Source of the DNA: Planctomycetales bacterium
GTDB taxonomy: Bacteria > Planctomycetota > JAKEIC01
DNA: 42,221 bases
Direction of reading: 5' to 3'
Assembly: GCA_022614695.1 (NCBI GenBank)
Contig: JAKEIC010000200.1
Location: 1 to 42,221 of the forward strand
Below the pieces are notes generated by a model. It ran no database searches and had not been told where the DNA came from. It saw only the letters and a list, made by a program, of their open reading frames with translations. How positions within the stretch are numbered: the first letter of the stretch is position 1; each line of letters opens with the position of its first letter. The translations under genes were made by a program, and so were the position numbers. This document shows, one piece after another, positions 25,025 to 35,120 of the stretch.

Positions 25025-27460
25025 ATGGCCGCGGCGAGACGGGTCGGGGTCCTCGCGCTGGTCGCGGCGCTCGCGGGGGGCACCGCGGCGGCGGGCTGCC
25101 GCAAGAGGGACCGCTCCTCGGAGGCGGCCCCGCCCGCGCCGCCGCCCCCGACCGTCGCCCTCACTTCGGTCTCGCCATCGTCGGGCCCGATCGCGGGCGG
25201 GACCCTGGTCACGCTCGCGGGGACGGGCTTCCAGGCCGGGGCGACCGTCTCGTTCGGCGGCTCTCCCGCCACGTCGTTGACGGTCGTCTCGTCCACCCAG
25301 ATCACGTGCGTGACCCCGCCCGGCCCGGTCGGCCCCGCGAGCGTCACCGTCGTGAATCCCGACGCGACATCGGCGACCCTCGCGAACGGGTTCACCTACG
25401 TCGGCCCGGCGCCGACGCTCGCGTTCGTCGCGCCGACCGCCGGGCCCGCCGCCGGCGGGGCGACCGTGTACCTCACCGGGACGAACTTCGCGGCGGGCGC
25501 GACGGTCTCGATCGGAGGCGCAGCGGCCACGGTCGTGTCGGTCACGCCCACCACGATCCGGGCCGTGACGGGAGCGGGCTCGCTGGGGACCCAGTCCGTC
25601 ACCGTGACGAACCCCGACTCCCAGGCCGCGACTCTCGCCTCGGCCTACACCTACTGGGGCGCCGGGCTCTCGGTCTCGTCGCTCTCCCCGACCTCGGGCC
25701 CGAACACGGGCGGGACGACGATCACGGTCACGGGGAGCGGCTTCGTCTCCGGGGCGATCCTCGAGGTCGGGGGAGTCGCCGCGACCGCCGTCACCGTCCT
25801 CTCCTCGACGCAGATCCGCGGGACGACCGCCGCGCTCAACCCCTTCGGCCCCTACCTCGTGGGGCCCGTGAACGTGGGGGTCCGCAACCCCGACGCGCAG
25901 GGCGCCGTCCTCGTGAACGGGTTCAACGCCCTCGGGACGGCGCCGAGCCTCTCGTCGCTCGCTCCGACCTCGGGGTCCACGGGCGGCGGAACCCTCGTGA
26001 CGCTCACCGGGACGGGGTTCGACCCGGTCGAGGACGGGGGCTTCTCCACCTCGTCGGTCTCGTTCGGGAGCAACGCGGCGACCTTCGTGAACGTCGCCTC
26101 GACCACGACGATCACCTGCTGGACCCCGGCCGGCGCGGCCGGCGCGGTGAACGTGACCGTCACGAACGCCGACGGGCAGGCCTCGACGGTCGCGAGCGGG
26201 TACACCTACGTCGCGGGGCCCGGGATCTCGTCGGTCTCGCCGGCCGGCGGCCCGGGCTCGGGCGGGACGACGATCACGATCTCGGGGACGGGCTTCGCGG
26301 CCGGGGCGACCGTGACCGTCGGGGGAGCGATCGCGACCTCGGTCGCGATCGCTAGTTCCAGCTCGATCACGTGCGTCACGCCCGCGGGGACGCCCGGCAC
26401 GGTCCATGTCACGGTGACGAACCCGGGGCCCGTCTCGACGACCCTCCCCTTCGGGTTCGCCTACGCGAACGGCGTGAACGCGCAGACGGCGCCTTACGTC
26501 TTCGACACCTCGGCCGGTATGGACTGCCGCCGACGCTGGTACGTGAACATGAACCTCGCGAGCTTCCTCAAGGACCTCCAGAACCGCGGGCTCCAGTCGT
26601 GGGGGAGCCCGGGCGACACGACGGCCCCCCCGGCCCCGCTCCCGCTCGTGGACCAGTACGCCCTCGACTGGATGCGGGCCTACGTCCTGCGCACGATCTC
26701 GGTCGTCTACGGGCGGAACCCCGACGGGAGCCGGGTCTCCGGCGCGAGCATCCAGATCTCGTTCGTCGGGCTGCCCCCGGCGACGGGCTCGCGCGGCTGC
26801 GGGACGCCGTCCACCGGCTGGAGCGAGATCTGCTGCGGCGGCTGCAACCCGCAGGGGAGCGGGGGCCCCCACCCCTCCGCGAGCCAGGCCTCGTGCGGCG
26901 GCGGGGCGATCGGGCGCGCCCACTTCGACAACTCCGACACGCTCCCGTGCAACTCCTACGGCGAGTGGACCTGCAACGGGGTCTACCAGGGCTGCTCCGG
27001 GTGCTCCGTGGACATGGGCGTCTTCACGGCGAACATCGGGAACGGCTGGGCGTCCTCCCTCTCGCCCGCCCTCTCCTCGACCGACCAGCAGTACCTCGAC
27101 GGGACGACGACCTCGGGCGCGCGCTACAACGCGGTCCACTCCTTCCTGCAGCAGTTCGCCCGCCGGATCGCGTTCGTCACGGCCCACGAGATCGGCCACG
27201 ACGTGGGACTCTCGGCCAGCGCCGCGCGGGGTCCCTGCACGATCAACCTGACCTCGGGCCAGTGCGGGGCGACGGCGGGCCACAACTCGTGCTGCTCGAC
27301 GAACCTGATGGCCCCCGGGCTCCCGCTCTCGGGGACGTTCACCGACTTCACGCGCGCCCTCGACGGGAACCCGGCCGGTCCGAGCGCGGGCGCCGGCTGC
27401 TCGGCGACGGGCGCCTCGGCGTGGGCGGTCCTGCAGGCGTATTTGGGCGTCTCGCCGTAG
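25025..27460 (+). CDS. lipoprotein with five IPT/TIG domains and a C-terminal zinc metalloprotease-like region
   Basis: Lipobox GGTAAAGC; five IPT/TIG units; FVTAHEIGHDVG (HExxHxxG) and downstream NLMAPGLPL Met-turn-like motif; Cys-rich insert. Confidence 0.85.
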   Translation: MAAARRVGVLALVAALAGGTAAAGCRKRDRSSEAAPPAPPPPTVALTSVSPSSGPIAGGTLVTLAGTGFQAGATVSFGGSPATSLTVVSSTQITCVTPPGPVGPASVTVVNPDATSATLANGFTYVGPAPTLAFVAPTAGPAAGGATVYLTGTNFAAGATVSIGGAAATVVSVTPTTIRAVTGAGSLGTQSVTVTNPDSQAATLASAYTYWGAGLSVSSLSPTSGPNTGGTTITVTGSGFVSGAILEVGGVAATAVTVLSSTQIRGTTAALNPFGPYLVGPVNVGVRNPDAQGAVLVNGFNALGTAPSLSSLAPTSGSTGGGTLVTLTGTGFDPVEDGGFSTSSVSFGSNAATFVNVASTTTITCWTPAGAAGAVNVTVTNADGQASTVASGYTYVAGPGISSVSPAGGPGSGGTTITISGTGFAAGATVTVGGAIATSVAIASSSSITCVTPAGTPGTVHVTVTNPGPVSTTLPFGFAYANGVNAQTAPYVFDTSAGMDCRRRWYVNMNLASFLKDLQNRGLQSWGSPGDTTAPPAPLPLVDQYALDWMRAYVLRTISVVYGRNPDGSRVSGASIQISFVGLPPATGSRGCGTPSTGWSEICCGGCNPQGSGGPHPSASQASCGGGAIGRAHFDNSDTLPCNSYGEWTCNGVYQGCSGCSVDMGVFTANIGNGWASSLSPALSSTDQQYLDGTTTSGARYNAVHSFLQQFARRIAFVTAHEIGHDVGLSASAARGPCTINLTSGQCGATAGHNSCCSTNLMAPGLPLSGTFTDFTRALDGNPAGPSAGAGCSATGASAWAVLQAYLGVSP

Positions 27461-33256: not shown

Positions 33257-33334
33257 AGCCGAGCGGCGCCGAGCTGTTGCGGAGGCGATGTCCCGGGAGA
33301 CGTCCCGGCACGGGCCCTGCTTGGTCCGGGGGTA

Positions 33335-34006
33335 ATGTCCAACGCCCGGCTGCACAGGACCGCCGACCTCTTGGCAGCCGGCGCCGCGGCGGGGCTTCTG
33401 GCAGCCTGCGGGGCCCGCACGATCACGGCCATCGCCCCCGGCGCCGGCGGATGGCTCCTCGCGCCGGCCGCCGCCCTGGGCGTCGCCGCCGCCGATCTTG
33501 CCTCGGGTCTCCTGCACTGGGCGTGCGACTCGTTCGGCTCCGAGCGGACGCCGGTCCTCGGCCGCACCCTGATCCGGCCGTTCCGGGAGCACCACCGCGA
33601 TCCAGAGGCGATCCTCCGTCAGGGCACCCTGAAGCTCTCGCGCAATTCCTGCCTGGCGGCCCTCCCCGTCCTCTCGGTCACCCTCGCGGCGCCAGGCCCC
33701 TCGCCCGGGGCGTCCGCGGCGCTCTTCATCCACGCGACGCTCCTCGTCTTCGTGGCCGCCTCGCTCGCGACCAACCTCTTCCACCGGTGGGCCCATGCCG
33801 CGCGCGTTCCTCCGGCGGTCGGCTGGCTCCAGTCCGTCGGGCTGATACTCTCCCGGGAGGCGCACCACCCTCACCACGCCGGGGGGCGGCGCGCCTACTG
33901 CGTGACGACCGGCTGGATGAACGGCTGGCTCGACCGGGCTCGCGTACTGCCCCGGGCGGCCGCCTGGCTGCGCGCGACCTGGAGGCGATCCCCCCATGCC
34001 CGATGA
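33335..34006 (+). CDS. plasmanylethanolamine desaturase-like protein (CarF/TMEM189/Kua family)
   Basis: ADLASGLLHWACDSFG, RPFREHHRDP, NLFHRWAHA, LSREAHHPHHAGGRRAYCVTTGWMNGWLD. Confidence 0.88.
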   Translation: MSNARLHRTADLLAAGAAAGLLAACGARTITAIAPGAGGWLLAPAAALGVAAADLASGLLHWACDSFGSERTPVLGRTLIRPFREHHRDPEAILRQGTLKLSRNSCLAALPVLSVTLAAPGPSPGASAALFIHATLLVFVAASLATNLFHRWAHAARVPPAVGWLQSVGLILSREAHHPHHAGGRRAYCVTTGWMNGWLDRARVLPRAAAWLRATWRRSPHAR

Positions 34007-35120
34007 GCCGCCGATGCCCTCCGCACGGGAGTTCCGGTTCGGGGAGGGCCGGATCAGCGCGGTCCTCGGGCTCTTCCTCGGCAGCCTCGGGTTCGGCGGC
34101 GTGCTCTGCCTTCTCTTCCCCTCGCTCCTCTCGACGCCCGACATGCGGGTCCACTACCCGATGGGGCTGCTCCGAGGGCTCATCCTGGCGACCCTCGCGG
34201 GAGGCTTCGGGTTCGGCGTCCTGAGCCTCCTCCTCCGCCGGGGGCCGACGGTCGGGCTCGCGGGGATGGCCCTCTCCATCGCCGGAACGCTGCTTGGAGG
34301 CGCCGGCGCCCGACCGGCGGCGCCCTCCGGCGAAGCCCCGGTCTATCTCGGTCTCGACTGGTTCCTCCTCTCGCTCTTCCTGCTCGCTCTCGTCTTCGTC
34401 CCTCTCGAGCGGATCTTCGGGCGCCTCCGGGACCAGAGGATCTTCCGCGAGGGATGGACGACCGACCTCGCGCACTTCGCCGCGAGCCATCTGCTCGTGC
34501 AGGTCTCGGTGCTCCTCACGATGCTTCCCGCCGCCGTCTTCTTCGGGTGGATCGTCCTCCCCGGGGTCCAGGCCGCCGTCTCATCGCAGCCGGTCGCCCT
34601 CCAGTTCGTCGAGGTGGTCGTCCTTGCCGACCTCACGGGCTACCTCGTGCACCGGCTCTTCCACGCCGTTCCCTTCCTCTGGCGCATCCACCAGGTCCAT
34701 CACTCGAGCCGGGTGCTCGACAGGCTGGCCGCGTCGCGCCTCCACCTCTTCGACATCCTCGTGATGCGGGCGGCGGTGTTCGTGCCGCTCTACGTCCTCG
34801 GCTTCTCGAGCGGCGCGATCTACGGGTACCTCGTCCTGGTCTCCTTCCACGCGATCCTGATCCACGCGAACCTCCGCTTCGACTCCGGTTGGCTCTCCCG
34901 GCTCGTCGCGACCCCCCGGTTCCACCACTGGCACCACAGCTCGCAGCGCGTGGCATGGGACAAGAACTTCGCGATCCACTTCCCGTGGATAGACCGGCTT
35001 TTCGGGACGCTCCACCTCCCCCCGGGCGAGTGGCCGTCGGCGTACGGGATCCAGGGGGACCCCGTGCCCGAGGGCTACGGCCCTCAACTCGGGTACCCGT
35101 TCCGGTCCGTCGCGAGGTAG
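33996..35120 (+). CDS. fatty acid hydroxylase/sterol desaturase superfamily membrane di-iron enzyme
   Basis: His boxes HRLFH, HQVHHSS, HHWHHSSQ with multiple TM segments; overlaps the preceding stop by 11 nt. Confidence 0.9.
   Translation: MPDEPPMPSAREFRFGEGRISAVLGLFLGSLGFGGVLCLLFPSLLSTPDMRVHYPMGLLRGLILATLAGGFGFGVLSLLLRRGPTVGLAGMALSIAGTLLGGAGARPAAPSGEAPVYLGLDWFLLSLFLLALVFVPLERIFGRLRDQRIFREGWTTDLAHFAASHLLVQVSVLLTMLPAAVFFGWIVLPGVQAAVSSQPVALQFVEVVVLADLTGYLVHRLFHAVPFLWRIHQVHHSSRVLDRLAASRLHLFDILVMRAAVFVPLYVLGFSSGAIYGYLVLVSFHAILIHANLRFDSGWLSRLVATPRFHHWHHSSQRVAWDKNFAIHFPWIDRLFGTLHLPPGEWPSAYGIQGDPVPEGYGPQLGYPFRSVAR

Follow-up and report, generated by a model that had tools for sequence, protein, structure and literature searches.

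What do two overlapping genes for putative membrane di-iron enzymes do together in a planctomycete genome? Because the first resembles CarF and the second belongs to the superfamily of alkylglycerol monooxygenase (AGMO), the original prediction was that the pair forms and turns over ether lipids. The genes lie in a window of 42,221 nucleotides, the whole of one contig from a 5.0-Mb MAG of the Planctomycetota (88% complete). We find that the pair recurs as a unit in about eight phyla. We consider it reasonably likely that it forms an O2-dependent lipid-tailoring operon, in which a desaturase and a hydroxylase act on one membrane lipid.

Both reading frames proved to be real. Their codon-position G+C is typical for coding DNA (0.73/0.63/0.90 in gene 1 and 0.71/0.45/0.93 in gene 2), and each is the only homologue of its family in the genome at the thresholds applied. 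The AlphaFold model of gene 1 has a helical membrane fold (pLDDT 91), while that of gene 2 reached a pLDDT of 87.6. A sequence search of the PDB returned no match for either protein. A Foldseek search of the PDB with both models gave nothing significant, the best hit of gene 1 being the yeast hydroxylase Scs7p (E 0.8). The overlap between the genes that had been described also holds, given the first ATG of gene 2; an alternative ATG at 34014 leaves no overlap. Upstream, the pair is flanked by an HtrA-like protease gene, a short ORF without matches and the gene of an ABC-F ATPase; downstream of it lie genes for a methyltransferase/glycosyltransferase and for an aldo-keto reductase. Elsewhere in the window, positions 25025-27460 encode a protein of 811 aa that has five TIG/IPT domains and, close to the C terminus, a metalloprotease-like motif, HEIGHD.

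Table 1. Features of the gene pair in the window, and named loci at which the pair recurs
Feature	Position	Strand	Basis
Possible ribosome-binding site GGGGG, closely spaced to the gene 1 ATG	33328..33332	+	sequence; inference
Gene 1, Kua/CarF-type membrane desaturase (PF10520 Lipid_desat), 223 aa	33335..34006	+	147.5 bits, cut-off 26.4
HWACD, His61..Asp65: first iron ligand and Asp matching mouse PEDS1 D100	33515..33529	+	alignment; roles from PMC8960569
FREHH, Phe83-Arg-Glu-His86-His87: equivalents of mouse F118, H121, H122	33581..33595	+	alignment
Gln96 codon, site of the ninth histidine (mouse PEDS1 H131, CarF H113)	33620..33622	+	alignment
HRWAH, His150..His154, ligands	33782..33796	+	alignment
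HHPHH, His177..His180-His181, ligands	33863..33877	+	alignment
Overlap between genes 1 and 2, 11 nt	33996..34006	+	sequence, first ATG of gene 2
Gene 2, N-terminally extended fatty-acid-hydroxylase-superfamily membrane protein, 374 aa	33996..35120	+	PF04116 FA_hydroxylase
N-terminal membrane extension of gene 2, ~120 residues	33996..34355	+	alignment A3; predicted helices 19-40, 56-80, 85-99
HRLFH...HQVHH (His219, 223, 232, 235, 236), invariant in the gene 2 subfamily	34650..34703	+	alignment A3
HHWHH, residues 310-314, third His box of gene 2	34923..34937	+	alignment A3
Pair loci: Gemmatimonadota L103, L110; Deltaproteobacteria L108; Thermoanaerobaculia L115; SAR86 L117; Acidimicrobiia L138			
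Pair loci: Terriglobia L141; Pedosphaera L161; Rokubacteria L163; Planctomycetota L167, L177; Verrucomicrobia L124, L139			

The assignment of gene 1 to the Kua/TMEM189 family was borne out by its PF10520 match, and the HWACD, FREHH, AHHPHH and YCVTTGWMN motifs on which it had been based are all present. The eight catalytic histidines are kept (H61, H86, H87, H150, H154, H177, H180 and H181), as are D65 and F83; in PEDS1 (TMEM189) the eight histidines, Asp100 and Phe118 (mouse numbering) are essential (PMC8960569). A ninth histidine (H131 in mouse, H113 in CarF) is found in the animal, myxobacterial and Leptospira enzymes and is required in CarF, and the plant and alphaproteobacterial homologues without it fail to replace CarF (PMC8960569, PMC9131029). 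Gene 1 carries a glutamine at this site, where every plasmalogen-forming enzyme tested and most unpaired bacterial homologues have His. PEDS1 activity is therefore less likely for gene 1. Gln96 still leaves room for it, since roughly 7% of the activity remained when mouse H131 was mutated to Ala (PMC8960569). The ninth histidine is also absent from 10 of 15 intact Kua proteins of the pair (named and planctomycete pair loci, with the window counted), but present in nearly all unpaired ones. Gene 1 scored 141.6 bits against the NCBIfam CarF equivalog model (cut-off 500). This cut-off was dropped as a test, since homologues from Myxococcaceae (320-350 bits) and Leptospiraceae (219-223 bits, a range shared with Nannocystis) also fall short. 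Gene 1 thus shares its family and essential residues with CarF and PEDS1, but differs in Gln96, in its CarF-model score (142 bits) and in its linkage to a hydroxylase.

These features bear on two specific readings of the pair. In the first, gene 1 is a plasmanyl desaturase that converts alkyl-ether into vinyl-ether lipid, and gene 2 modifies the same ether lipids. Motifs of the REHH and TTGW-N type support this reading, as does the presence of all PEDS1-essential residues but one, whereas the loss of the ninth histidine speaks against it. In the second, gene 1 desaturates an ester-linked acyl chain of a phospholipid near the carboxyl end of the chain, as plant FAD4 would suggest, and gene 2 hydroxylates the same chain. 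Loss of the ninth histidine is what gene 1 has in common with the FAD4-type and alphaproteobacterial PF10520 proteins, whose own loss is known from the literature (PMC9131029). Conversely, where other planctomycete PF10520 proteins have an NxxHH-type motif, gene 1 has REHH, as on the CarF side, and its FREHH and YCVTTGWMN motifs set it apart from FAD4 in a comparison made by motif rather than by tree.

We next considered gene 2, which had been placed in the di-iron hydroxylase superfamily. This was confirmed by a PF04116 match of 98.6 bits over residues 206-338 (cut-off 31). Its N-terminal extension is common to all relatives in alignment A3 except two distant outgroup rows, and a search of viral contigs for gene 2 found no match. 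The further proposal that gene 2 is an AGMO that cleaves ether lipids draws on the shared superfamily and the same eight-His pattern. However, tetrahydrobiopterin (BH4) binding by AGMO depends on a Glu adjacent to the second motif His, Glu137, which other family members are said to lack; the enzyme also needs Asp233, Asn235, Tyr236, Trp243 and Asp244 (PMC3617469). In gene 2 the position of Glu137 is Ala224, and it is never Glu in 29 relatives. The remaining five AGMO residues correspond to D322, N324, F325, I332 and D333, so that Phe replaces the essential Tyr and Ile the Trp. No Pfam AGMP_C domain was seen in gene 2, and none was matched in the window genome by a search that had no positive control. 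A pterin-4a-carbinolamine dehydratase gene is present in the window genome, and pterin recycling would thus be possible; as a BH4 marker this gene does not discriminate, being found in 12 of 15 genomes. With its BH4 glutamate and essential Tyr replaced, gene 2 is very unlikely to be an AGMO. The only curated NCBIfam model that it matched was the ornithine-lipid hydroxylase OlsE (NF052566; residues 148-371), at 104 bits against a cut-off of 475. OlsE is thus the nearest curated relative of gene 2, which falls far below the cut-off and carries about 120 extra N-terminal membrane residues.

To what extent are the two genes kept together? A scan of the genome collection with a Kua alignment gave 80 named Kua loci, and in 13 of these an orthologue of gene 2 adjoins the Kua gene. 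These loci span eight phyla by MAG record title, although some of these labels may be wrong. None of the pair loci that we found belongs to a named isolate. Ten of the 13 are arranged as in the window, and three (L124, L139 and L177) are divergent. Two Gemmatimonadota genomes (G660 and G686) have the reversed order, hydroxylase then Kua, still adjacent. The pair therefore occurs in three gene orders, and additional genomes of Planctomycetota and Gemmatimonadota carry it as well. The downstream start overlaps the upstream stop in each of the 11 other pairs that have both genes on one strand with Kua first (the ten tandem loci and planctomycete G086), usually by -4/-1 nt (sizes of -1, -4, -17 and -14/-20 nt). 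We found no papers on this gene pair in the literature collection searched.

Co-occurrence across genomes points the same way, with the qualification that the Fisher p-values ignore the relatedness of the genomes. In the Planctomycetota sample, Kua was present in 8 of 16 genomes with a full-length hydroxylase and in 25 of 376 others (p 9e-6, window genome excluded), and in the Gemmatimonadota sample in 4 of 6 hydroxylase genomes and 9 of 292 others (p 3e-5). The distances of the two families correlate (Mantel r 0.58, p 0.0002), and on both trees the linked state requires 6-7 changes, with at least three gains or losses forced by well-supported branches. Conservation of the pair is thus strong, and its adjacency, recurring in many genomes, is not due to chance. 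The alternative that the two genes are mere neighbors, for instance in a longer housekeeping operon, could draw on the shared direction of most surrounding genes. However, none of the genes flanking the pair in the window recurs beside pair loci elsewhere, and no third gene was found to be common to the pair loci, while the pair itself recurs in three orders across phyla. We therefore regard a lack of joint function as extremely unlikely; the strongest indication that the genes work together is their repeated linkage in more than one order. At the same time, many Kua genes have no such partner beside them, including the nearest relatives of the window gene (L102 and L104), and no Kua was detectable in about half of the planctomycete genomes with the hydroxylase, so the two enzymes could also act separately.

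Several loci deserve separate mention. In genome G114, a 169-aa ORF (L081:7538-8047, minus strand) fuses the N-terminal part of Kua, up to FREHHRDPLS, in frame to a gene 2-type C-terminal part (TPRFHHWHH...); this ORF seems to stem from either a deletion inside what was once a pair or an assembly error. A hydroxylase gene on a 4.7-Mb contig (L248, G482:C1) is interrupted by a TAG stop codon; its genome has no detected Kua, and the stop possibly reflects decay after loss of the partner. The record CAMBZJ010000035.1 (L105) is titled Klebsiella pneumoniae, and its Kua groups with a Deltaproteobacteria MAG sequence; it is probably a mislabelled MAG.

We then asked whether pair-bearing genomes could supply ether lipids. 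A genuine alkyl-DHAP synthase (AGPS) homologue is encoded in the SAR86 genome: its FAD enzyme scores 247 bits to 2uuu and 75 bits to D-lactate dehydrogenase in the PDB. With this enzyme as query, AGPS proteins score above 100 bits and D-lactate-dehydrogenase-like proteins at most 82 bits. By this measure the window genome, 88% complete, has no AGPS: its best FAD-oxidase match reached 78 bits, in the D-lactate-dehydrogenase range. ElbD was likewise not found there; ElbD-sized PF07993 proteins were present in the Myxococcaceae controls and in G400. Together with Gln96, these absences weaken the identification of gene 1 as CarF/PEDS1. On the other hand, the window genome encodes a protein (G000:C332, L240:2820-7685) with two BcrAD_BadFG domains and DUF2229, an architecture that has been linked to alkyl-ether formation by glycerol ester reductase (Ger); Ger and PlsA are not yet separable by sequence (PMC13274423). 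This PlsA/Ger-like protein suggests, from its domains, vinyl- or alkyl-ether lipids made by an oxygen-independent route. With this protein, the window organism may have an ether lipid, and its presence favors the plasmalogen reading.

Among the 15 pair genomes, four have AGPS (the SAR86 genome G397, G393, G400 and G401), three others have a DUF2229 protein (the window genome, G395 and G396), and eight have no AGPS, ElbD or PlsA/Ger-like protein. The last group includes G086, which is 99% complete. AGPS is rarer in pair genomes (4/15) than in genomes with an unpaired Kua (30/48; p 0.02), and within pair genomes the state of the ninth histidine showed no clear relation to AGPS presence. The true AGPS in four pair genomes supports the plasmalogen reading, and its rarity compared with unpaired-Kua genomes and its absence, like that of ElbD, from the window genome count against it; overall we judge this reading rather unlikely. 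The same data favor the FAD4-like reading, as aerobic ether-lipid genes are missing from most pair genomes and every known route tested is missing from eight of the 15. Set against its CarF-side motif, this leaves the FAD4-like reading doubtful, if somewhat less so. The broader proposal that the pair forms and turns over ether lipids finds no support in the eight pair genomes in which none of the three proteins was found, although the window genome does have the PlsA/Ger-like one. In G397, a streamlined marine SAR86 MAG of 1.2 Mb, the pair (L117) and the AGPS homologue (L211) lie on different contigs. Three Candidatus Uhrbacteria loci of the CPR (L122, L144 and L149; genomes of ~0.9 Mb) carry a CarF-type Kua with the ninth histidine, and no AGPS was found there.

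Our preferred explanation remains the two-enzyme lipid-tailoring operon. Both genes are intact, have complete metal-ligand sets, and are linked and co-retained across phyla. Considering that they are kept side by side in about eight phyla, they very probably modify one lipid together. The two known branches of PF10520 use O2 and an electron donor and work on lipid chains close to the glycerol. By analogy with PEDS1/CarF and plant FAD4, gene 1 would probably introduce a double bond into a chain of an intact polar lipid, at a position close to the glycerol. The second di-iron enzyme would then oxidize the same lipid, either at the carbon that the desaturase has activated or, as its nearest curated relative OlsE would suggest, on the head group. 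That the two share a substrate and act in sequence is what we infer, the shared substrate from their linkage. Tight co-translation would keep the two membrane enzymes in balance, and the lipid class may differ between lineages. Because the plasmalogen and FAD4-like readings are specific forms of this same module, our confidence in them overlaps with our confidence in the module as a whole.

According to PMC9131029, CarF homologues occur only in myxobacteria, Leptospira and a few alphaproteobacteria. Here, REHH-type PF10520 proteins were found in many more bacterial phyla. The pair is thus of more general interest than first stated; the plasmalogen reading is not established, and the AGMO reading is disfavored. 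We tentatively propose that the product of the pair may be a so far undescribed bacterial membrane lipid, a glycerolipid both desaturated and oxygenated by two coupled di-iron enzymes in about eight phyla, including a streamlined SAR86 genome. These results also warn that not every CarF-like gene in a metagenome is a plasmalogen marker. A recurrent partner with overlaps of the translational-coupling type gives a concrete handle on the role of the non-plasmalogen members of this family.
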